NCBI GenBank assembly: GCA_003697015.1
Contig: RFGL01000378.1
Location: 1 to 39,449 of the forward strand
From: Acidobacteriota bacterium
Lineage (GTDB): Bacteria > Acidobacteriota > Thermoanaerobaculia > Multivoradales > J023
Reading direction: 5' to 3'
DNA: 39,449 bases
Within the stretch, counting starts at the first letter, position 1; each line of letters opens with the position of its first letter. The notes under the pieces were generated by a model that saw only the letters and a program-made list of their open reading frames with translations, ran no database searches and was not told the DNA's origin. Below are positions 7,326-35,256 of this stretch, piece after piece. The translations under genes and the position numbers were made by a program.

Positions 7326-8704
7326 CGGGCCCCCGCCTCGCGCCCCGGAAAGAGCAGGTTGATGGTCGGCATCTCCGCCTTCTGGACGAAGAGGATCACC
7401 GTGTCCCCGGCCTCCAGCCGGTCCTTGCCGCGGGGCACGAAGACGCGCTCGCCGCGCACCACCGCGCCGACGATCACGCCGCGCGGCGGGTTGAATTCCG
7501 CCAGGGTGACGCCGGCCGCCGGACTGGCCTCGTGCAGCCGCCGTTCCAGCACCTCGGCCGCGCCGCGCTCCAGCGACACGAGGTTGGCGCTGTAGCCCTG
7601 GTCGACGTACTCCTTGATCCGCTGGTAGGCGATGGCCCGCGGCGAGACGATCTCCATCAGGCCGAGCTTGCGCCACAGGTACGAGGTCTCGCCCCGCTGC
7701 ACCAGGGCGACGACCTGCGGCACCCCGAGCTCGCGCGCCAGCAGGCTGGCCATCAGGTTGCGCTCGTCCTGGCCGGTGAGGGCGACGAAGACCTGGGCGC
7801 GGGGCACGTCTTCGGCCCGCAGCAGGGCGACGTCGGTGGCGTCGCCGTGCAGCACCTCGACGCCGGGCAGCTGGGCGGCCAGCTCCTGCGCCCGCCGCAG
7901 GTCGCGTTCGATCAACTTGACGCGCTCGACCCGGCCGTTGGCGCTCTGACCGAGGAGCGCCTGGGCGACGGTCTCGCCGGTGCGGCCGCCCCCGGCGATG
8001 ACCACCACCTTGCGATCCCGGGGTCGCGAGCTGAGCCGGCGCTCGACGTCGCCGATGACCTCGGTGGAGGCCAGGATCAGGGCGTCGTCGCCGGGCTGGG
8101 CGACGTCGTCGCCGCTGGGGACGGTCAGCTCGTCGCCGCGCTGAAACGCCACCACCAGACAGCCTTCGGGCAGCTCGATCTCGCGCAGCGGCCGTCGGGT
8201 CAAAGGCGACTGGTCGTCGAGGTGGATCTTGCGCAGCTGCACCTTGCCCTGGGCCAGATACTCCACCGCCACCGTGTTGTGGCCGAGGATGTGGTTCAGG
8301 ATGTGGGTGGTGGCGAGGAGCTGGGTGGAGAGCAGCAGGTCGGCGCCGAAGACCTCCTCATACAGTTGCCGGTGGGTGGTGATGTCCTCCGCCACGCCGA
8401 CCCGCACCACCGTCCGCTTGGCCCCCAGGCGGCGGGCGAGAACCGCCGCCGCCAGGTTGGCCTCGTCCGACGACGACACCGCCATGAAGAGGTCGCAGGT
8501 CGCCACCCGCGCCTCCTTGAGCACCGGTACGTGGGCGCCGTTGCCCCCCACCACCGCGACGTCGAGCTCCTCCTCGACCCGCGTTCGCTTGATCGGATCG
8601 ATCTCGATCACCACCACGCTGTGGCCGTGCTGGGAGAGGGTGCGGGCGAGGTGCAGCCCGACTTCGCCCACCCCCATCACCACATAACGCCGTTTGTCGT
8701 CCAT
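7322..8704 (-). CDS. trkA: TrkA potassium uptake regulator with two RCK repeats
   Basis: The cytoplasmic NAD(H)-binding gating subunit that sits under TrkH. Its 460 residues contain two RCK units. The first Rossmann motif is GVGEVGLHLA near residues 11-20 with an acidic strand end (VVVIEIDP). The second is AGGGRTGETVAQALL near 232-246 with VKLIERD. Each is followed by a TrkA_C-like domain (EIELPEGCLVVAFQRGDELTVPSG and VTLAEFNPPRGVIVGAVVRG regions are diagnostic). ATG 8704 is preceded by GGAGGA at five bases. It is the first gene of a two-gene operon, overlapping trkH by four bases. Confidence 0.95.
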   Translation of the reverse strand: MDDKRRYVVMGVGEVGLHLARTLSQHGHSVVVIEIDPIKRTRVEEELDVAVVGGNGAHVPVLKEARVATCDLFMAVSSSDEANLAAAVLARRLGAKRTVVRVGVAEDITTHRQLYEEVFGADLLLSTQLLATTHILNHILGHNTVAVEYLAQGKVQLRKIHLDDQSPLTRRPLREIELPEGCLVVAFQRGDELTVPSGDDVAQPGDDALILASTEVIGDVERRLSSRPRDRKVVVIAGGGRTGETVAQALLGQSANGRVERVKLIERDLRRAQELAAQLPGVEVLHGDATDVALLRAEDVPRAQVFVALTGQDERNLMASLLARELGVPQVVALVQRGETSYLWRKLGLMEIVSPRAIAYQRIKEYVDQGYSANLVSLERGAAEVLERRLHEASPAAGVTLAEFNPPRGVIVGAVVRGERVFVPRGKDRLEAGDTVILFVQKAEMPTINLLFPGREAGAR

Positions 8705-8743
8705 GCGCGTCCTCCGGCTCGCCGGCCACCGGCAAAGCGCCCG

Positions 8744-8749
8744 ATTCTA
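8744..8749 (-). promoter_or_regulatory. -10 element for trkA-trkH
   Basis: TAGAAT on the - strand, 39 bases before the trkA ATG. The same TAGAATC word occurs before the peptide gene and before the cyclic-nucleotide-binding gene. No convincing -35. Confidence 0.4.
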
Positions 8750-8801
8750 GCGTGAATCGCTGCCGGGGAGGCGCTCCGGGCCCGACCCCCGCCGCCCCGT
8801 A

Positions 8802-8831
8802 TTGCACCGACCTCGCCGGTAGAGGCATAAT
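8802..8831 (+). promoter_or_regulatory. Promoter for the TonB-dependent receptor
   Basis: TTGCAC (3 of 6 to TTGACA) and CATAAT (5 of 6 to TATAAT) are separated by 18 bases. They leave a leader of about 125 bases before ATG 8965. I looked in this leader for a cobalamin or other known riboswitch core and saw none. Confidence 0.4.
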
Positions 8832-8964
8832 CGCTTCGCTTGCGCGCGCGAAACGTCATCGCAACCCCCTAAGCCCGCGAGCCGGCGCCAGCGGCGCCGA
8901 CGGCCGGGCGGCATCGACGAGCGGTGCCGCGCCCGGGATGGACACAGGAGATCAGGAGGACGGC

Positions 8965-11355
8965 ATGCGAAGGAATCGACTGATCGCGATGGTGGCGCTC
9001 TGGCTGCTCGCGCTGGGGCCGGCCACGGCCCAGTCCGACGGGCGGATCGAAGGTCGCGTCACCAAGCAGGACGGCAAGGGCATCGGCGGCGTCACGGTTG
9101 TGGTCAGCGAGCTGGGCGCGGTCGAGATCACCGACAACGACGGCTCCTTCGTCTTCGAGGACGTACCCCCGGGCACCTACAACCTGAGCTACAGCCTGGG
9201 AGACAACGCCGACTCGCAGACCGTGACCGTCACCAGCGGCGCCACCGCCCAGGCCGACAAGGTGGTCGACTGGGACTACAGCTTCGCCGAGACGATCACC
9301 GTCTTCTCCGCTTCGCGGCGCCGGGAGCGCATCGTCGAGGCGCCGGCGGCGGTGACCCAGATCGACGAGGAGCAGATCGAGCGCGAAGGCTCCCACGGCC
9401 AGCTGCCGAAGCTGCTCGAGTTCAGCCCCGGCGTCGAAGCGACCCAGAGCGGCGTCTACGACTACAACTTCAATACCCGCGGCTTCAACAGCTCCCTCAA
9501 CCGCCGGGTGCAGGTGCTGGTCGACGGCCGCGATCCGTCGGTGCCCTTCCTCGCCTCGCAGGAATGGGTGACCGTCTCCCAGTACATGAACGACCTGTCC
9601 TCCGCCGAGCTGGTGCGCGGGCCGAGCTCGGCGCTCTACGGCGCCAACGCCTTCAACGGGGTGCTCAACCTGGTCACCAAGTCGCCGCGCGACAGCGCCG
9701 GCGGCGAGCTGCGGCTGACCGGCGGCGAGCTGTCGACGCAGAAGATCGAGTTCCGCTGGGCCGGTCCGGTCGGCGGCGAGTGGTACTTCAAGCTCAACGG
9801 CTCCTACCTGCAGGGCGACGACTTCTCGGTCGACCGCAACGTCACCACCGAATACGCCGGCCTGCCGCGCGAGGTGCGACCGCGGGTGGTGGACGAAAAC
9901 GAGGTCACCTTCGGCAACCTGCGCCTCGACAAGTACTTCGCCAACGGCGACTTCATCGCCATCGAAGGCGGCGTGGCGGACGCCCAGGCGCCGGCCATCC
10001 TGACCGGCATCGGCCGCTTCTCCCTGCCCTCGGTGGAGCGCTTCTGGAGCCGCTTCAACTACACCTCCGACCACTGGAACTTCCTCGCCTACTTCAACGA
10101 CCGCGACGGCGAGGAGCAGACCTCGCTGCAGTCGGGCGCCCAGACCTTCCTCTTCAGCCAGAACTACAAGTTCGAATTCCAGACCAACTGGGATTGGAAC
10201 GACGGCAAGGTCCGCCTGGTGGCCGGTGCCAGCCACAAGGAAGAGGAGATCGACACCGCCAACCCGCAGGGCATCCAGACCCTGATGTTCCAGCCGGTCG
10301 AGTCCGACGCCCAGGCCCTCTTCGCCCAGCTCGACTTCCAGATCGGCCCCAAGGTCAAGCTGGTGGTCGCCGGGCGCTACGACGAGTCGACCCTGCACGA
10401 CAACCAGTTCTCGCCCAAGGGCTCGCTGGTCTACAGCATCAACCCCAACAACACCCTGCGCTTCAGCTACAACGAGGCCTTCCAGGTCGCCAACTACTCC
10501 GAGTTCTTCCTCCAGGCGGACGCCGCGCCGCCGGTCAACCTGTCGCCCTTCGAGGCCTTCTGCGCCCCCTTCGGCGTCTCCTGCGGCTTCGGCATCAACC
10601 GGGTGCTGGCGGTGGGCAACGCGGCGCTCGACGTCGAGGAGGTCCAGAGCTTCGAGATCGGCTACACCGGCATCCTCGGCAAGAAGGCCTTCCTGACCAT
10701 CGACTACTACGACAGCTCGCTGGAGAACTTCATCACCGACCTCTTGCCCAACGTCGGCACCGCCCTCGGCCGCCTCAACCCGGCCTTCGGTCCCTACCAG
10801 CCGCCGGCGGCGTTGCCGGCGCCGGTCGCCCAGGCTCTCCTCGCCGCCCTCCAGGGTGCCCTGGGGCCGACCTTCTTCGCCCTGTCGAACAACTTCGACG
10901 GCCGCCCGGTTATCGTCGGCGCCAGCTACACCAACTTCGGCGCGGTCGACACCGACGGCATCGACTTCGGCCTCAACTACTACATCACCCCCGAATGGCG
11001 GCTGAACGTCAACTACTCGCTCTTCGACTTCAACGTCAAGCAGGACATCCCCGGCGATCCGCTACAAGCCAACGCGCCGGAGAACAGCGGCGGCATCGGC
11101 ATCGCCTACGTCGGCGACCGCTTCGACGCCTCCCTGAGCGGCCGCTTCGTCGACAGCTTCGAGTGGTTCGCCGGCCTCTTCCGCGGCACCGTGCCGTCGT
11201 ACGAGACCTTCGACCTGACCGCCAACTACCACGTCAACGACCACGTCACCGTCGGCATCAACGTCTCGAACCTCTTCGACGACGAGCACTACGAGGCCTT
11301 CGGCGGCGACCTGATCAGCCGCCGGGCCCTGGGCCACGTCGCTTTCCGCTGGTAG
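8965..11355 (+). CDS. TonB-dependent outer membrane receptor with carboxypeptidase-regulatory-like N-terminal domain
   Basis: A 796-residue outer membrane receptor driven by TonB. The signal peptide is about 1-22, with ATA before the predicted cut. Residues about 27-105 form a CarboxypepD_reg-like beta-sandwich (GRIEGRVTKQDGKGIGGVTV, then DNDGSFVFEDVPPGTYNL). The plug follows (about 115-240, with TRGF, LVDGRDPS, VRGPSSALYGANAFNGVLN). The rest is a beta-barrel of alternating aromatic strands, including INPNNTLRFSYNEAF, and ends in HVAFRW with a terminal aromatic residue. A loop holds two cysteines (FCAPFGVSCGF). ATG 8965 has AGGAGGA seven bases upstream, so in-frame codons before it are not used. 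No uptake partner genes are next to it, so the substrate is unknown; this domain layout occurs in SusC-like and siderophore-type receptors alike. Confidence 0.92.
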   Translation: MRRNRLIAMVALWLLALGPATAQSDGRIEGRVTKQDGKGIGGVTVVVSELGAVEITDNDGSFVFEDVPPGTYNLSYSLGDNADSQTVTVTSGATAQADKVVDWDYSFAETITVFSASRRRERIVEAPAAVTQIDEEQIEREGSHGQLPKLLEFSPGVEATQSGVYDYNFNTRGFNSSLNRRVQVLVDGRDPSVPFLASQEWVTVSQYMNDLSSAELVRGPSSALYGANAFNGVLNLVTKSPRDSAGGELRLTGGELSTQKIEFRWAGPVGGEWYFKLNGSYLQGDDFSVDRNVTTEYAGLPREVRPRVVDENEVTFGNLRLDKYFANGDFIAIEGGVADAQAPAILTGIGRFSLPSVERFWSRFNYTSDHWNFLAYFNDRDGEEQTSLQSGAQTFLFSQNYKFEFQTNWDWNDGKVRLVAGASHKEEEIDTANPQGIQTLMFQPVESDAQALFAQLDFQIGPKVKLVVAGRYDESTLHDNQFSPKGSLVYSINPNNTLRFSYNEAFQVANYSEFFLQADAAPPVNLSPFEAFCAPFGVSCGFGINRVLAVGNAALDVEEVQSFEIGYTGILGKKAFLTIDYYDSSLENFITDLLPNVGTALGRLNPAFGPYQPPAALPAPVAQALLAALQGALGPTFFALSNNFDGRPVIVGASYTNFGAVDTDGIDFGLNYYITPEWRLNVNYSLFDFNVKQDIPGDPLQANAPENSGGIGIAYVGDRFDASLSGRFVDSFEWFAGLFRGTVPSYETFDLTANYHVNDHVTVGINVSNLFDDEHYEAFGGDLISRRALGHVAFRW

Positions 11356-22497: not shown

Positions 22498-23883
22498 TCA
22501 GGCGATGGCGCCCGCGCGATCGAGCAGGCGGACGATCGCCCGGATCCCGCCGTAGAAGTTGCTGACGTTGAACTTCTCGTTGGGGGAGTGGAGGCGGTCG
22601 TCCGCAAGGCCGAAGCCGAGCAGCAGGATCGGTACCCCGAGCACCTTCGAGAAGGTCGAGACGATCGGGATCGTGCCGCCTTCGCGCACCCTCACCGGCT
22701 TTTTCCACACGTCCGCCATCGCCGCCATGGCGGCTTCGACCAGCGGCCCTTCGGTCTCGATCAGCACCGGCTCGGCGCCGTGGTGGGAGATCACCTCGAG
22801 GGTCACCCCCTTGGGCTGGATCGAGCGCACGTAGTCCTCGAACAGACGCGCGATCTCGTGCGGATCCTGATCCGGCACCAGACGCATCGACACCTTGGCG
22901 CCGCACCAGCTGGGGATGATGGTCTTGGCGCCCTCCTTCATGTAGCCGCCGAAGATGCCGTTGACGTCGCAGGTCGGCCGCGCCCAGGCCCGCTCGAGGG
23001 TGGTGTACCCCTCTTCGCCGAAGAGCTCGGGAACGCCGATCGAGCGGCGGTAGGCCTCCTCGTCGAAGGGCAGGCGGGCGAACTCCTCGCGCTCCCAGTC
23101 GGCGAGGGGCCGCACCTTGTCGTAGAAGCCGGGGATCAGGACCTTGCCGGTCTCGGCGTCGCGCAACCGGGCGATGAGGTAGGCGAGGACGTTGCCCGGG
23201 TTGGCCACCGCGCCGCCGTAGCTGCCGGAGTGGAGGTCGCGGTCCGGGCCGGTCACCTTGAGCTCCACGTAGGTCATGCCCTTCAGGCCGTAGAGCAGGG
23301 AGGGCTGGCCGGGGGCGTACATCGCCGAATCGGAGATCACCACGCAGTCGCAGGCCAGTTTCCGGCCCGCGTCCTGGCGCACGAAGCTCTCCAGCGCCTC
23401 GCCGCCGGATTCCTCCTCTCCCTCGACGATGAACTTGACGTTGACCGGCAGCTTGCCGCGCTCGGCGAGCACCGCCGCCACCGCCTTCAGGTGGGCGTAG
23501 CTCTGGCCCTTGTCGTCGGTGGCGCCGCGCGCCACCAGCTCGTCCCCCTCGACCACCGGCTCGAAGGGGTCGTGACGCCACAGCTCGAGCGGGTCGGCGG
23601 GCTGGACGTCGTAATGGCCGTAGAACAGGATCGTCGGCTTGCCCGGCGCGCCCAGCCACTCGCCGTAGACCAGCGGATGGCCGTCGGTCTCGATCAGCTC
23701 CGCCTCCAACCCCGCCTGGAGCATCTTGTCGCGCAGGAAGGCGCCGCAGCGCAGCACCTCGTCGCGGTAGGCCGGATCGGTCGAGATGGAGGGGATGCGC
23801 AGGTAGTCCTTGAGCTCCTCGAGGTACCCCTCCTTCTCGCGCTCGACCCGGGCCAGCACATCCTGGCTATCCGTCAACGACAT
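22498..23883 (-). CDS. M20 family metallodipeptidase (CNDP/carnosinase-like)
   Basis: A cytoplasmic zinc dipeptidase of 461 residues, the usual length. The metal ligands are visible: His90 in FYGHYDVQP, bridging Asp123 in ARGATDDKG, the Glu pair 156-157 in VEGEEESG, Asp in VVISDS and His in DDRLHSPNE. The lid (dimerisation) domain lies at about 205-400, with LHSGSYGGAVANP. ATG 23883 is preceded by AGGAGAG at seven bases, so this gene starts its own translation unit. It probably hydrolyses dipeptides; an acetylated or other specific substrate cannot be excluded. Confidence 0.93.
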   Translation of the reverse strand: MSLTDSQDVLARVEREKEGYLEELKDYLRIPSISTDPAYRDEVLRCGAFLRDKMLQAGLEAELIETDGHPLVYGEWLGAPGKPTILFYGHYDVQPADPLELWRHDPFEPVVEGDELVARGATDDKGQSYAHLKAVAAVLAERGKLPVNVKFIVEGEEESGGEALESFVRQDAGRKLACDCVVISDSAMYAPGQPSLLYGLKGMTYVELKVTGPDRDLHSGSYGGAVANPGNVLAYLIARLRDAETGKVLIPGFYDKVRPLADWEREEFARLPFDEEAYRRSIGVPELFGEEGYTTLERAWARPTCDVNGIFGGYMKEGAKTIIPSWCGAKVSMRLVPDQDPHEIARLFEDYVRSIQPKGVTLEVISHHGAEPVLIETEGPLVEAAMAAMADVWKKPVRVREGGTIPIVSTFSKVLGVPILLLGFGLADDRLHSPNEKFNVSNFYGGIRAIVRLLDRAGAIA

Positions 23884-31942: not shown

Positions 31943-33043
31943 CTAGATGCGGATCGGCATGATCACGCACAGATAGCGCCGGTCGTCGCCGTCCACCGGA
32001 TAGGCGACGCATTGCGAGTCCTCGTCCTTGAGCTCCAGCCGCACCGTATCGGTCTCGACGGCACCGAGGAAGTCCTTGAGGTAATCGGGGTTGAGGCCGA
32101 CCGACAGCTCCTCGCCCTGGTACTCGCAGGGCAGGTCCTCCCGCGCCTCGCCGAGGTCCGGGTTGGCGGCCGTGAGCTCCAGCTCGCCGTCGCGCAGGTT
32201 CAGGCGGATGGAGCGGGCGCGATCCCCGGTCAGCAGGCTGACGCGCTGGATGGCGGCGGCGAAGCTCTGCCGCGGCAGCACCACGTGTTTGTCGTTGTCG
32301 CGGGCGATCACCCGCTCGTAGTCCGGGAAGGTGCCTTCGAGCACCCGACAGATCAGCTGCCGGCGGCCGACGGTGAACGAGAGGTGGTGCTCGCCGCGGC
32401 GGAAGTGCAAGTCCGCTTCGTCCTCGAGGCGCAACAGCTCCTGCAGCGCCTTGCGCGGTACCAGGACGCTGTCGGCCGCCTCCAGCCCCTCGACCTCCGA
32501 CTCGACCAGGGCGAGGCGATGGCCGTCGGTCGCCACCAGGGTGAGGGCCCCCTCGCGTTGTTCGAGCAGCGCCCCGGCGAGCTGGAAGCGGGATTCTTCG
32601 CTCGATACGGCGAAGAAGACCTTGCCGACCATCTTCTTGAAGGTCGGGAACGCCACCTCGACGGCGCCGTCGGCTTCGAGGGAAGGCAGGGTCGGGAAGT
32701 CGTCCGCCGGCAGGCCGCGGATCTTGAAGCGCGACTTGCCGGCCGCGAGGCTGACGGTCTGTGTTTCCGAGTCCAGGCTGAGGGCGACGTCGTCGCCTTC
32801 GCAGGCGCGGACGATCTCGAGCAGCTTCTTGGCTTGAAGTGCGATCGCGCCTTCCTCCTCGACCTCGGCTTCGCACGACGAGGTGAGGGAGACCTCGAGA
32901 TCGGTGGCCGCGACTTCGAGGCGGTCGTCGATCGCCCGCAGCAAGAGATGGGAGAGGACGGGGATGGTCGAGCGCCGTTCGACGATGCCCTGCATCGGCA
33001 CCAGCTCCCGCAGCAGCTCGACGCGATTCAGTCGGATGTCCAT
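31943..33043 (-). CDS. dnaN: DNA polymerase III beta subunit (sliding clamp)
   Basis: The processivity clamp, 366 residues making three similar clamp domains. Recognisable parts are VERRSTIPVLSHLLL, KSRFKIRGLPADDFPTLP, ATDGHRLALVE, FPDYERVIA and the C-terminal VMPIRI-like IMPIRI. The frame stays open upstream, but ATG 33043 has AAGGAG nine bases before it and begins the family's usual MDIRLNRVELL. Part of the 352-base gap between its start and the dnaA stop is the DnaA-box cluster. Confidence 0.96.
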   Translation of the reverse strand: MDIRLNRVELLRELVPMQGIVERRSTIPVLSHLLLRAIDDRLEVAATDLEVSLTSSCEAEVEEEGAIALQAKKLLEIVRACEGDDVALSLDSETQTVSLAAGKSRFKIRGLPADDFPTLPSLEADGAVEVAFPTFKKMVGKVFFAVSSEESRFQLAGALLEQREGALTLVATDGHRLALVESEVEGLEAADSVLVPRKALQELLRLEDEADLHFRRGEHHLSFTVGRRQLICRVLEGTFPDYERVIARDNDKHVVLPRQSFAAAIQRVSLLTGDRARSIRLNLRDGELELTAANPDLGEAREDLPCEYQGEELSVGLNPDYLKDFLGAVETDTVRLELKDEDSQCVAYPVDGDDRRYLCVIMPIRI

Positions 33044-33141
33044 CGGATCGTACTCCTTCAGCTGAGCGAGGGCGAAACTATCACAGAGACGGAAGAGGAG
33101 GAGATTCCAGAGATCTGCTCGTCGGAGTCGTCGCCGTAGGG

Positions 33142-33374
33142 CCTGTGGACGGTGCGGAAAACCGCCCAGGCGCCGGCCCGGCGGCCTCCTGCGCCGGCCG
33201 CGGCTGTGGAGCGTCCTGTCGGCCGTCCTGTGGAAAGCCTGTGGACGGCTGCGGATGAACTGTGGAGAAATCGCCGCGGCGCGCCCCCGATCCTCTCCGG
33301 ACTGGGTTTTCCGCAGATCCTCCACAGGCTTGCGGGAGGATTTCCACAGGGTGGCGAACAGCGTTGTCCACAGG
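33142..33374. other. DnaA-box cluster in the dnaA-dnaN gap (candidate oriC part)
   Basis: At least eight DnaA-box-like 9-mers. On the - strand: 33142-33150, 33203-33211, 33227-33235, 33238-33246, 33259-33267. On the + strand: 33320-33328, 33342-33350, 33364-33372. They follow a local form TTCCACAGG / GTCCACAGG, and the best is TTGTCCACA at 33364 (one change from TTATCCACA). The five left boxes and three right boxes point toward each other. Two are 11 bases apart, one helical turn. Combined with the gene context this is strong evidence for an origin region. The coding frames open across it look like accidents. Confidence 0.8.
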
Positions 33375-33395
33375 CGTCAGGGACTCCGGCAGCAC

Positions 33396-34691
33396 CTACT
33401 CGAAGTGGTCGACGAAGCCCTGGATGGTGCGATCGAAGTCTTTGTCCTCGTGCCGCAGCTTCTCGATCTTGTCGACCGAGTAGATCACCGTCGAATGGTG
33501 CTTGTCGTTGAACTGGCGGCCGATGTCGGGGAAGGAGAGCTTGGTGAGCTTCTTACAGAGGTACATCGCCACCTGGCGCGGGAAGGCGATGTGCTTGGAG
33601 TTGGTGCGGCTCTTGATCTGGCTGACCTTGAGGCCGTAGTGCCGGGCGACGAACTTGATGATCTCCGGCGCCGTCACCCGGCTGCCGTCGGCCGGCAGGA
33701 TGTCGCGCAGGGTCTCCTTGGCCAGGGCCAGGGAGAGGGAACGCCCGGTGAGGGAGCCGAATGCGACCACCCGGTTGAGCAGCCCCTCGAGCTCGCGGAT
33801 GTTGGACTTCACCCGCTCGGCGATGAAGAGCGCGACGTCGTCGGGCAGCTCGATCCGGTCGAGCTCCGCCTTGCGCCGCAGGATGGCGATCTTGGTCTCC
33901 AGCTCCGGCGGTTGGATGTCGGCGATCAGCCCCCACTCGAAGCGGCTTCGCAGGCGCTCTTCGAGGGTCGGGATGTTGCGCGGCGAGGAGTCGGAGGTGA
34001 GGATGATCTGCTTCTGGCTGGTGTAGAGGGTGTTGAAGGTGTGGAAGAACTCCTCCTGGGTCCGCTCCTTGTTGGCGATGAATTGCACGTCGTCGATCAA
34101 CAGCACGTCGATCGTGCGGTAGCGATGACGGAAGGCCGGCATGCGGTCGAAGCGGATCGAGTTGATCAGCTCGTTGACGAATTGCTCCGCCGGGGTGTAG
34201 AGGATCCGCAAGCGGGGCTGGTTGAAGCTGATGTGATGGCCGATGGCCTGCATCAGGTGGGTCTTGCCGAGACCGACGCCGCCGTAGAGGAAGAGCGGGT
34301 TGTAGCTCGCCGAGGGGCCCTCCGCCACCGCCCGGGCGGCCGCATGGGCGAATTGGTTGGAGGTGCCGACGACGAAGGTGTCGAAGCTGAACCGCGGGTC
34401 GAAGGTCGACGACGGCATCTTGGCGTTGCGGCCGCGGCTCTGGCCGTTGCCCCCCTCGACGGTGAACAGGACCTCGAAGCCGCCGGCGTCGAGGGCTTCC
34501 AGGGCGCGGTCGAGGGCCGGCCGGTAGCTCTGCTCGAGGGTGTGGACGAAATTCTCGTCCGGCGCTGCCAGAACCAGCCGCCGGCCGTCCTCCGACGATA
34601 CCCGCAGGGGGGCGAACCAGGTCGCGAGCTCGTCGGGGTCGAGCTGGGTTTCGAGATGCTGCTTGATGAGAGGCCAGCGAGATTCACTCAT
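33396..34691 (-). CDS. dnaA: Chromosomal replication initiator DnaA
   Basis: The AAA+ origin-binding initiator, 431 residues. Domain I (1-75) has WFAPLRVSSEDG. Domain II is very short (about 79-97). Walker A is GGVGLGKTH at 137-145, Walker B is VLLIDDVQFI, and the box VII region LRSRFEWGLIADIQPPELETKIAIL is intact. The domain IV DNA-binding signature is PDIGRQFNDKHHSTVIYSVDK. I use ATG 34691 (MSESRWPLIK); a GTG at 34721 in frame lies inside a DnaA box and is rejected. Neither has a clear ribosome binding site. A promoter with the boxes downstream of it suggests autoregulation. Confidence 0.97.
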   Translation of the reverse strand: MSESRWPLIKQHLETQLDPDELATWFAPLRVSSEDGRRLVLAAPDENFVHTLEQSYRPALDRALEALDAGGFEVLFTVEGGNGQSRGRNAKMPSSTFDPRFSFDTFVVGTSNQFAHAAARAVAEGPSASYNPLFLYGGVGLGKTHLMQAIGHHISFNQPRLRILYTPAEQFVNELINSIRFDRMPAFRHRYRTIDVLLIDDVQFIANKERTQEEFFHTFNTLYTSQKQIILTSDSSPRNIPTLEERLRSRFEWGLIADIQPPELETKIAILRRKAELDRIELPDDVALFIAERVKSNIRELEGLLNRVVAFGSLTGRSLSLALAKETLRDILPADGSRVTAPEIIKFVARHYGLKVSQIKSRTNSKHIAFPRQVAMYLCKKLTKLSFPDIGRQFNDKHHSTVIYSVDKIEKLRHEDKDFDRTIQGFVDHFE

Positions 34692-34713
34692 CGGTCGATC
34701 CCAGGAGGGTTCT

Positions 34714-34745
34714 TTTTCCACAGCCTTTCCACAGCCTGTGGAAAA
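34714..34745. other. Second DnaA-box cluster upstream of dnaA
   Basis: Three boxes in 32 bases: TTTTCCACA at 34714-34722, CTTTCCACA at 34725-34733 and an inverted TGTGGAAAA at 34737-34745. They lie between the dnaA promoter and its start, so DnaA could block its own transcription. They may also be the second half of a bipartite origin. Confidence 0.75.
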
Positions 34746-35256
34746 TCAAATCAACACCGGTAGTGCTCTGGAACCGACGCGTCTGGAAGCAGAGCGGAGG
34801 TCGCACATCATAGCACAGAGCGACGCCGGGTTGGGCGTCGGATCGTGGCACCGGCCGAAAATTTTCTGGCATCGAATTTGCTAGTAGCAATGCCAACGTA
34901 CGTACCAATGGGGGACGGTTCAAGTACCTGAGTTTGCATCCTGCCATAACTGCCGAGATCTGAGGATCTCAAACCCGACTCATCCAATCCCCTCGAAACA
35001 GGGGTAAACCACCGATAACCACCAAACGACTGGACCTCCCCCGGTACAGATCCTTTCGTATCGATTCAACCTTCCGGTCCACATTTCGGCTGGCGACGGC
35101 AGCGCGGCGTCCTCGCCCGCGTATCGCCGGCGTTGCGCCTGGAAACCGCGGGTGCCAGCACGGGCCGAGAAAGCACCTGACAATTATCGTCACCCGGGCT
35201 GAAAAAAAATCGCCGATAGGCCTTCTCAGCAAGAATCGGGCCAAGCGCGCGAGCGC
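34746..35256. other. AT-richer gap upstream of dnaA with several inverted repeats, no gene
   Basis: About 510 bases, visibly richer in A and T than the rest of the window. It holds TTGCT-AGT-AGCAA (34878-34890), ACGTACGT (34896-34903), GAGATC-TGAG-GATCTC (34955-34970), CCCCT-CGAAAC-AGGGG and a tandem AACCACC. Eight As lie near 35205. Short frames here show no protein-like pattern. The likely uses are the dnaA promoter, DNA unwinding, and a REP-like insertion discussed in the findings. Confidence 0.5.
34807..34815 (-). promoter_or_regulatory. dnaA: Extended -10 promoter of dnaA
   Basis: On the - strand TGC followed by TATGAT (5 of 6 to TATAAT). The start would be near 34800, giving a leader of about 108 bases that contains three DnaA boxes. 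No clear -35. Confidence 0.6.

Follow-up and report, generated by a model that had tools for sequence, protein, structure and literature searches.

The dnaA locus studied here, from a bacterium of the Thermoanaerobaculia (Acidobacteriota), raises two questions: whether the DnaA boxes on both sides of the gene mark a split chromosomal origin, and how such an origin would open when most triplets at its unwinding site have cytosine where those of Bacillus subtilis have adenine. The window, by which we mean the whole stretch of DNA analysed (39,449 bases), is contig C57 of a 5.34-Mb assembly in 500 contigs. In B. subtilis, the unwinding site comprises tandem DnaA boxes, a short spacer and DnaA-trios of the form 3'-GAT-5' (PMC8287927, PMC10721633; these and the other articles are cited throughout from their accessible portions). 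The amino group of the central adenine contacts Asn187 of DnaA, and cytosine also bears an amine (PMC10721633). When cytosine replaced the central adenine of trio 1 the rate in vitro was similar, and in vivo cytosine in trios 1-3 was superior to guanine or thymine (PMC10721633). A survey published in 2021 defined the trios by a required central adenine and reported that 15% of 2070 origins were without any; its authors suspected deviant motifs lacking the central adenine (PMC8287927). In the literature found, the exchange of the central A for C appears as a laboratory substitution alone (PMC10721633, as far as its accessible text goes), and natural trio variation was absent from the literature matches listed. 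Furthermore, nothing was found that joined DnaA-trio with Acidobacteri*, or Thermoanaerobaculia with oriC, in a literature of which supplements and many subscription papers were out of reach.

DnaA boxes on both sides of dnaA

The genes of the locus lie on the minus strand in the order dnaA, dnaN, recF-like, gyrB-like and gyrA-like, and the gene preceding dnaA encodes cyclic-nucleotide-binding domains. The DnaA protein is 67-68% identical to DnaA from three named Thermoanaerobaculia/Acidobacteria MAGs. Its box-reading motif, from residue 397, is KHHSTV, as at 96 of 110 class loci, in place of the RDHTTV of B. subtilis DnaA. The features of the locus are as follows.

33396..34691, minus strand: dnaA, 431 aa, with domains Bac_DnaA, Bac_DnaA_C and DnaA_N
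31943..33043, minus strand: dnaN (beta clamp), 366 aa, directly after dnaA
33044..33395, no strand: the dnaA-dnaN gap, 352 bases, 66% GC, equivalent of oriC2/incC, with 8 TCCACA boxes
33144, 33205, 33229, 33240 and 33261, minus strand: five gap boxes (TCCACA search)
33205..33266, minus strand: the four further gap boxes beyond the tandem pair described below (TCCACA search)
33321..33372 (33321, 33343, 33367), plus strand: three facing gap boxes (TCCACA search)
34717 (plus), 34728 (plus) and 34737 (minus): upstream boxes, just before the dnaA start (TCCACA search)
34713..34745, both strands: the upstream cluster of three boxes, two of which form the inverted pair TTTTCCACAGGCTGTGGAAA; distance to the dnaA start codon 22-54 bases
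34806..34817, minus strand: TGTGCTATGATG, an extended -10-like element, found repeatedly before dnaA in the order; putative promoter
about 34905-35050, minus-strand sense: structured element, GGGGGAGGTTC ... TACCCCTGT-n-AAGGGGAAT hairpin ... GAACCTCCCC

An earlier note on this DNA had counted eleven or more boxes flanking dnaA, with two facing groups of five and three near dnaN. Both statements hold, the second of them exactly: the TCCACA core occurs eight times in the gap (five minus-strand and three plus-strand copies) and three times before the dnaA start. In dinucleotide-preserving shuffles the gap has a mean of 0.14 boxes (maximum 2 in 500) and the 100 bases upstream of dnaA a mean of 0.10 (maximum 2 in 500), while the 20 occurrences of TCCACA/TGTGGA in the whole window compare with 9.0 (maximum 16 in 40); the box clusters are real and above chance. 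The facing order is shared, all minus boxes preceding all plus boxes in 50 of the 78 class gaps that have at least three boxes (TCCRCA, orientation relative to dnaA) with both orientations present, where 13.4 are expected.

The box itself had been described in that note as GC-adapted, a view that did not survive. Of the forms it gave, the TCCACAG common to all 11 boxes stands and the register in which they were written is off. G follows TCCACA at 11 of 11 origin boxes versus 2 of the 9 others in the window. In the customary 9-mer register there is nothing unusual about the upstream boxes (TTTTCCACA twice and CTTTCCACA once), and the gap boxes have drifted in their first three bases (CCG, CGC, CTT, CCG, TTC, TCC, ATT and TTG); six of the 11 are TTCCACAGG or GTCCACAGG, and TTATCCACA does not occur among them. 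The core is thus unadapted, drift is confined to the 5' part of the gap boxes, and a GC-adapted box is ruled out as the main story; the clearer change is in the trios, not in the boxes.

At 64 of 107 class loci the 100 bases before dnaA contain an inverted box pair, versus 0 of 2140 shuffles. The pair is nonetheless not general in the class, because it occurs at none of the 27 loci of families f13 (0/10), f14 (0/11) and f17 (0/6) and at 2 of 14 in f7. The -10-like element would place the upstream boxes in a transcribed leader, and at 40 class loci an element like TGNTATNAT, or the looser TGNTANNAT, lies within 220 bases, the window's cluster being downstream of such an element; a consensus promoter scan returned no promoter-like site. 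Autoregulation of dnaA is the simplest and most likely reading of these boxes, perhaps combined with looping towards the gap boxes, as happens in split origins elsewhere, and it is possible that the upstream cluster also forms part of the origin. A second unwinding module was sought here on both strands, and the best scores (16.1 and 15.7) fall in the shuffle range. The stretch at about 34840-35060 was considered as an unwinding element and rejected: it is AT-richer, but partly a separate structured element, and among 50 loci examined none has a run of three exact trios in the AT-rich stretch upstream of dnaA.

That structured element is conserved 300-400 bases upstream of dnaA at 14 loci of families f1-f4 (the window, L085, L093, L098, L102, L103, L105, L107, L108, L178, L179, L181, L183 and L189). 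Its RNAalifold energy is -18.1, versus -0.04 (sd 0.18) for 50 column shuffles, and Rfam gave no convincing match for the region upstream of dnaA; it is possibly an unnamed RNA. Two further peculiarities concern the arrangement of the locus in relatives. In genus g4 of the window's family, no dnaN could be found immediately behind dnaA in either genome (L085 and L163 of G026, L187 of G025); at L163 it lies (6058-4970) about 2 kb before dnaA (8137-9417) in the opposite direction, and the origin region of this genus seems rearranged. One assembly of family f3 (G042) carries two different dnaA-dnaN loci on separate contigs (L176 and L177), perhaps through contamination or a second replicon.

A probable unwinding module at the dnaN end

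A search for a DnaA-trio and an AT-rich unwinding element had been proposed, and candidates for both lie at the dnaN end of the gap.

33153..33161, minus strand: first tandem DnaA box (#6 position), TTTTCCGCA, a variant outside the TCCACA search
33144..33152, minus strand: second tandem DnaA box (#7 position), CCGTCCACA
33140..33143, minus strand: GGCC spacer from box to first trio, 4 bases, as in most scored Bacillus and clostridial loci
33119..33139, minus strand: putative DnaA-trio tract, in dnaA sense CTA CGG CGA CGA CTC CGA CGA, in the place of the relatives' (CTA)n
33060..33119, no strand: AT-richer stretch behind the trios, 47% AT, a candidate unwinding region

Judged from its sequence, the segment at 33118-33161 on the minus strand is a basal unwinding system (BUS) of the Bacillus type, with two tandem boxes, GGCC and DnaA-trios. 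The span originally singled out began at 33142 and so cut off the trio tract, which is the part that tells most. Alignment of the dnaN end of the gap in many relatives gives TTTTCCRCA-NNN-TCCACA-GGCC-(CTA)n, often followed by CTATGNTATATT, in which (CTA)n corresponds to canonical 3'-GAT-5' trios. Bacillus and clostridial loci carry this arrangement of tandem boxes, spacer and trios too. The complementary strand of the window's tract reads 3'-GAT GCC GCT GCT GAG GCT GCT-5'; one of its seven trios, the first (CTA), is canonical, CGG is also without the third base, and there is one CTC. Further on, CTGTGATAGTTT (33075-33086) is a weak match to the TGNTATATT that comes after the trios in many relatives, and is perhaps the -10 element of dnaN.

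The module was scanned for with a score that covers the boxes, the spacing and the outer bases of four triplets, and never the central base (threshold 19). From 209 loci that entered the scan 197 gaps were used, 12 loci having been dropped for want of a dnaN within range or of a usable gap (L007, L019, L025, L027, L071, L085, L104, L185, L187, L194, L249 and L255). The threshold is reached by 109 of the 197 gaps, versus 0.05% of 1970 mononucleotide shuffles and 1 of the 197 gaps when reverse-complemented; in the class it is reached by 47 of 105 gaps, and by none in f6, f15, f16 and f17. The window's module scores 23.0, a value that none of 3000 shuffles of its own gap attains (maximum 19.4), and elsewhere in the window the scan passes the threshold at 22704 on the plus strand (19.1) and at 34045 on the minus strand (21.0, inside dnaA). 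The regular expression (TA[AG]){3,} matched 14 of 50 loci, in every case within the gap on the dnaN side and on the opposite strand to dnaA, and is absent from the window; it is an inadequate detector because non-adenine centres are missed.

By the definition in PMC8287927, a BUS has its box or boxes within 16 bases of the trios, and the window has two tandem boxes and a 4-base spacer. The pattern (.A.){3,} of the same source is absent in the register set by the boxes, where the centres run A C C C A C C. The protein is of the expected kind, since in alignment to PDB 8btg the window's DnaA keeps all five trio-pocket residues (N173, I176, I179, R188 and E214, corresponding to B. subtilis N187, I190, I193, R202 and E228; residues per PMC10721633). 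We file the module as a variant that would work like a BUS, and not as a member by the central-adenine rule.

Likeness to the B. subtilis split origin had been noted beforehand, and it proves closer than the note supposed, the gap having tandem boxes, a GC spacer and trios like incC; the accompanying surprise at finding it in a Gram-negative type was misplaced, as Helicobacter pylori and other Epsilonproteobacteria have a split origin with oppositely directed box groups (PMC5043019). With the BUS of B. subtilis (incC, boxes #6/#7), the window shares the site between dnaA and dnaN, two co-oriented tandem boxes, the short GC spacer, triplets on the complementary strand, AT-richer DNA behind and five identical pocket residues, but it differs in its mostly cytosine centres, the 5' drift of its gap boxes and a first trio that alone is canonical. 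With bipartite origins generally (B. subtilis, H. pylori, other Epsilonproteobacteria), it shares box clusters that flank dnaA, opposed boxes in oriC2, and, as far as sequence can tell, an unwinding module in the dnaA-dnaN half. Unlike other oriC1-dnaA-oriC2 origins, it has upstream, just before dnaA, a compact cluster made up of an inverted pair and one further box. In B. subtilis and H. pylori both halves of the origin are stated to be needed in vivo (PMC6669920).

Central bases of the trios and the DnaA pocket

We consider it probable that this is a Thermoanaerobaculia chromosomal origin in which the central base of most trios is now cytosine and the trios are still functional. The central base was counted across loci as follows.

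Trios 1-3, 103 Asn187 loci: A 233, C 61, G 6, T 9
Asn187 loci with gap GC of 0.5 or more, one per genus (30 loci, being 25 of the class and 5 from outside it, each of the latter treated as a genus by itself): A 42, C 38, G 5, T 5
Class loci alone, again one per genus and with gap GC of 0.5 or more (25 loci): A 35, C 30, G 5, T 5
The preceding set less f13 and f14, one per genus and with the same gap GC limit (16 genera): A 31, C 9, G 4, T 4
Earlier register, less strict, with a threshold of 17 (44 loci from as many genera): A 63, C 49, G 14, T 6
Other classes, 61 loci scanned and 27 scored (6 of the 27 also in the 197-gap set; L255 dropped): A 69, C 6, G 5, T 1
Named-organism loci, 72 scanned and 56 scored (classes partly unverified): A 157, C 10, G 1

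The main counts use the third version of the register, with f10/f11 read via a single-box anchor; L126/L127 and L283 are possibly out of register and were kept, L227 is mis-registered in this version, and L024 and L029 (2 of 109 loci) were dropped for having no DnaA frame of 350 residues. The sample does not extend to Actinomycetota or further GC-rich phyla. For the 30 Asn187 loci taken one per genus, the share of C among non-A centres that follows from gap composition is 0.32, and the binomial p is 4e-11, ignoring kinship; pooled p-values such as this overstate the case because the loci are related. Parsimony on the DnaA tree gives about 19 changes from A to C, 6.5 from A to G and 6 from A to T (A to C versus A to G, one-sided binomial p 0.001-0.002). 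Among trios of the form CNA (41 loci) there are 47 CTA, 33 CGA, 2 CCA and 1 CAA. A background bias of CGA over CCA was considered as the source of this and rejected, as the 205 versus 199 in the gaps, and the 1320 versus 679 on one strand of the window, are too small for 33 versus 2.

The preference is strong in two families. In f13, all eight scored loci (10 scanned) have C in trios 1-3; L206, the ninth, scores 18.7 and likewise has C C C, and L227, the tenth (dnaA GC3 0.57), reads CGA CGA TAA CGA TGA in an earlier register, the later scan missing its tract. In one genus of f14, trio 2 is CGA, CGG or CTG at L205, L217 and L219 and trio 3 is CTA at all three, a variation at one place within a genus that helps to fix the register. 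Cytosine centres among the named organisms occur in Acidobacteria and Bacillota (L046, L057). f13 and f14 account for a large part of the excess of C: the class without both has C 9 against G 4 and T 4. Outside these families the preference is suggestive, and there C still exceeds G, weakly; loci from beyond the class give mixed support. We think that the window, and f13 more clearly, may offer natural examples of the deviant trios that the survey authors suspected.

An alternative that we regard as unlikely, but which is the strongest of the rivals, is that an ordinary origin has trios that decayed by drift under GC pressure, so that opening relies on the intact CTA, the boxes and AT-richer DNA, and the cytosines mean nothing. 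The lone canonical trio, the AT-richer stretch behind the tract, and the modest counts outside f13 and f14 are all as it would have them, as is L083, from the window's own genus, where the first four centres are A A C G and thus adenine in the first two. Yet the trio strand of the gaps contains 4122 G and 3170 C, and drift should therefore yield G at least as often as C, whereas in the class C is the commoner of the two, whether f13 and f14 are counted or left out (f10/f11 differ). Moreover, f13 keeps its cytosine-centred tracts, and so, in the earlier register, does L227 at its GC3 of 0.57.

It is very unlikely that we have read the wrong strand or register, although (CGA)n does contain adenine-centred GAC/TAC on the dnaA-sense strand, which DnaA might grip with opposite polarity, and the sense-strand A at position 3 is kept in both CTA and CGA. 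Part of that conservation, however, follows from the register score, which includes position 3. Two further points argue against such a reading: the boxes are oriented, and set 4 bases from the tract, as at the Bacillus loci, and PMC8287927 writes the B. subtilis trio beside the box as 3'-GAT-5'.

One clade departs from the class in both protein and trios. In f10/f11 (for example L122, L190 and L196), the positions aligned to window residues 173 and 169 are Thr187 at 13 of 16 loci and Asp183 at 14 of 16. Over five trios, the 13 Thr187 loci of this clade have centres A 44, G 17, T 3 and C 1, versus A 92, C 91, G 17 and T 10 at the 42 Asn187 class loci outside it (pooled Fisher p 8e-11, ignoring kinship). 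Clade and residue are inseparable here, because the three f10 loci with Asn187 behave like their clade (A 13, G 2, zero C). A wider rule, that the code asks for an amine in the central position, as dictated by the pocket of DnaA, with A or C in Asn187/Glu183 lineages and A or G in Thr187/Asp183 f10/f11, signal and pocket having changed together, is a tentative idea about which we have more doubt than confidence; it is weakened because one clade amounts to few independent events.

Probable position of the origin and proposed meaning of the cytosine centres

The earlier note had staked the origin on where the GC skew has its minimum. This check was run on G081, a relative of the same order assembled in one contig (4.63 Mb), by 20 samples of 20 kb followed by close sampling around dnaA, and its outcome favours an origin at dnaA. 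The cumulative skew of the samples is at its minimum at the 2540-kb sample and up by 2770 kb. In 10-kb bins the sign is mixed at 2570-2650 kb, negative in all eight bins at 2650-2730 kb (the last -0.003) and positive in the next two (+0.055 and +0.086); dnaA lies at 2727.4-2728.7 kb, which puts the change of sign within about 10 kb of the gene. Within the 39-kb window the skew is noisy and without a clean change of sign at dnaA. Because the skew of this one relative switches sign near dnaA, and given the box clusters, oriC is very likely at dnaA. That the boxes solely regulate the dnaA-dnaN operon, the true origin lying elsewhere, is scarcely credible, for although three boxes stand just before dnaA and the window's own skew lacks a clear switch, G081 has such a switch at dnaA and a complete candidate unwinding module occupies the gap, placed as in relatives.

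On the preferred reading of a working origin with cytosine-centred trios, the gap boxes between dnaA and dnaN would load DnaA, and the tandem boxes at 33144-33161 would pass it to the trio tract at 33119-33139. There DnaA would grip one strand, capturing two bases per triplet, and the duplex would open towards dnaN for helicase loading. Cytosine would replace adenine as the centre in most trios of this species; since it offers the pocket asparagine an amino group to contact, a GC-rich genome could raise the GC content of its opening site and keep recognition. Binding of DnaA, opening of the tract and the working of such trios are predictions that we infer from the locus and its relatives. The nearest precedent is the set of B. 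subtilis mutants of Pelliciari et al. 2023 with A-to-C changes in trios 1-3 (PMC10721633), which likewise combine cytosine triplets beside a box with an Asn187 DnaA; those trios were engineered, whereas the present ones are natural and common to the scored loci of f13.

The origin as such is ordinary and the split arrangement already known; the natural cytosine-centred trios are the new part. If what we propose is true, origin finders should use M (A or C) and not A for the central base, and natural variation becomes a test of a rule derived from a single structure and mutants of B. subtilis, for which f13 versus f3, and f10 with its Thr187, offer natural pairs for strand-separation assays. 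If the cytosine-centred trios are real, they would explain, for GC-rich bacteria, part of the 15% of origins recorded as trio-less.
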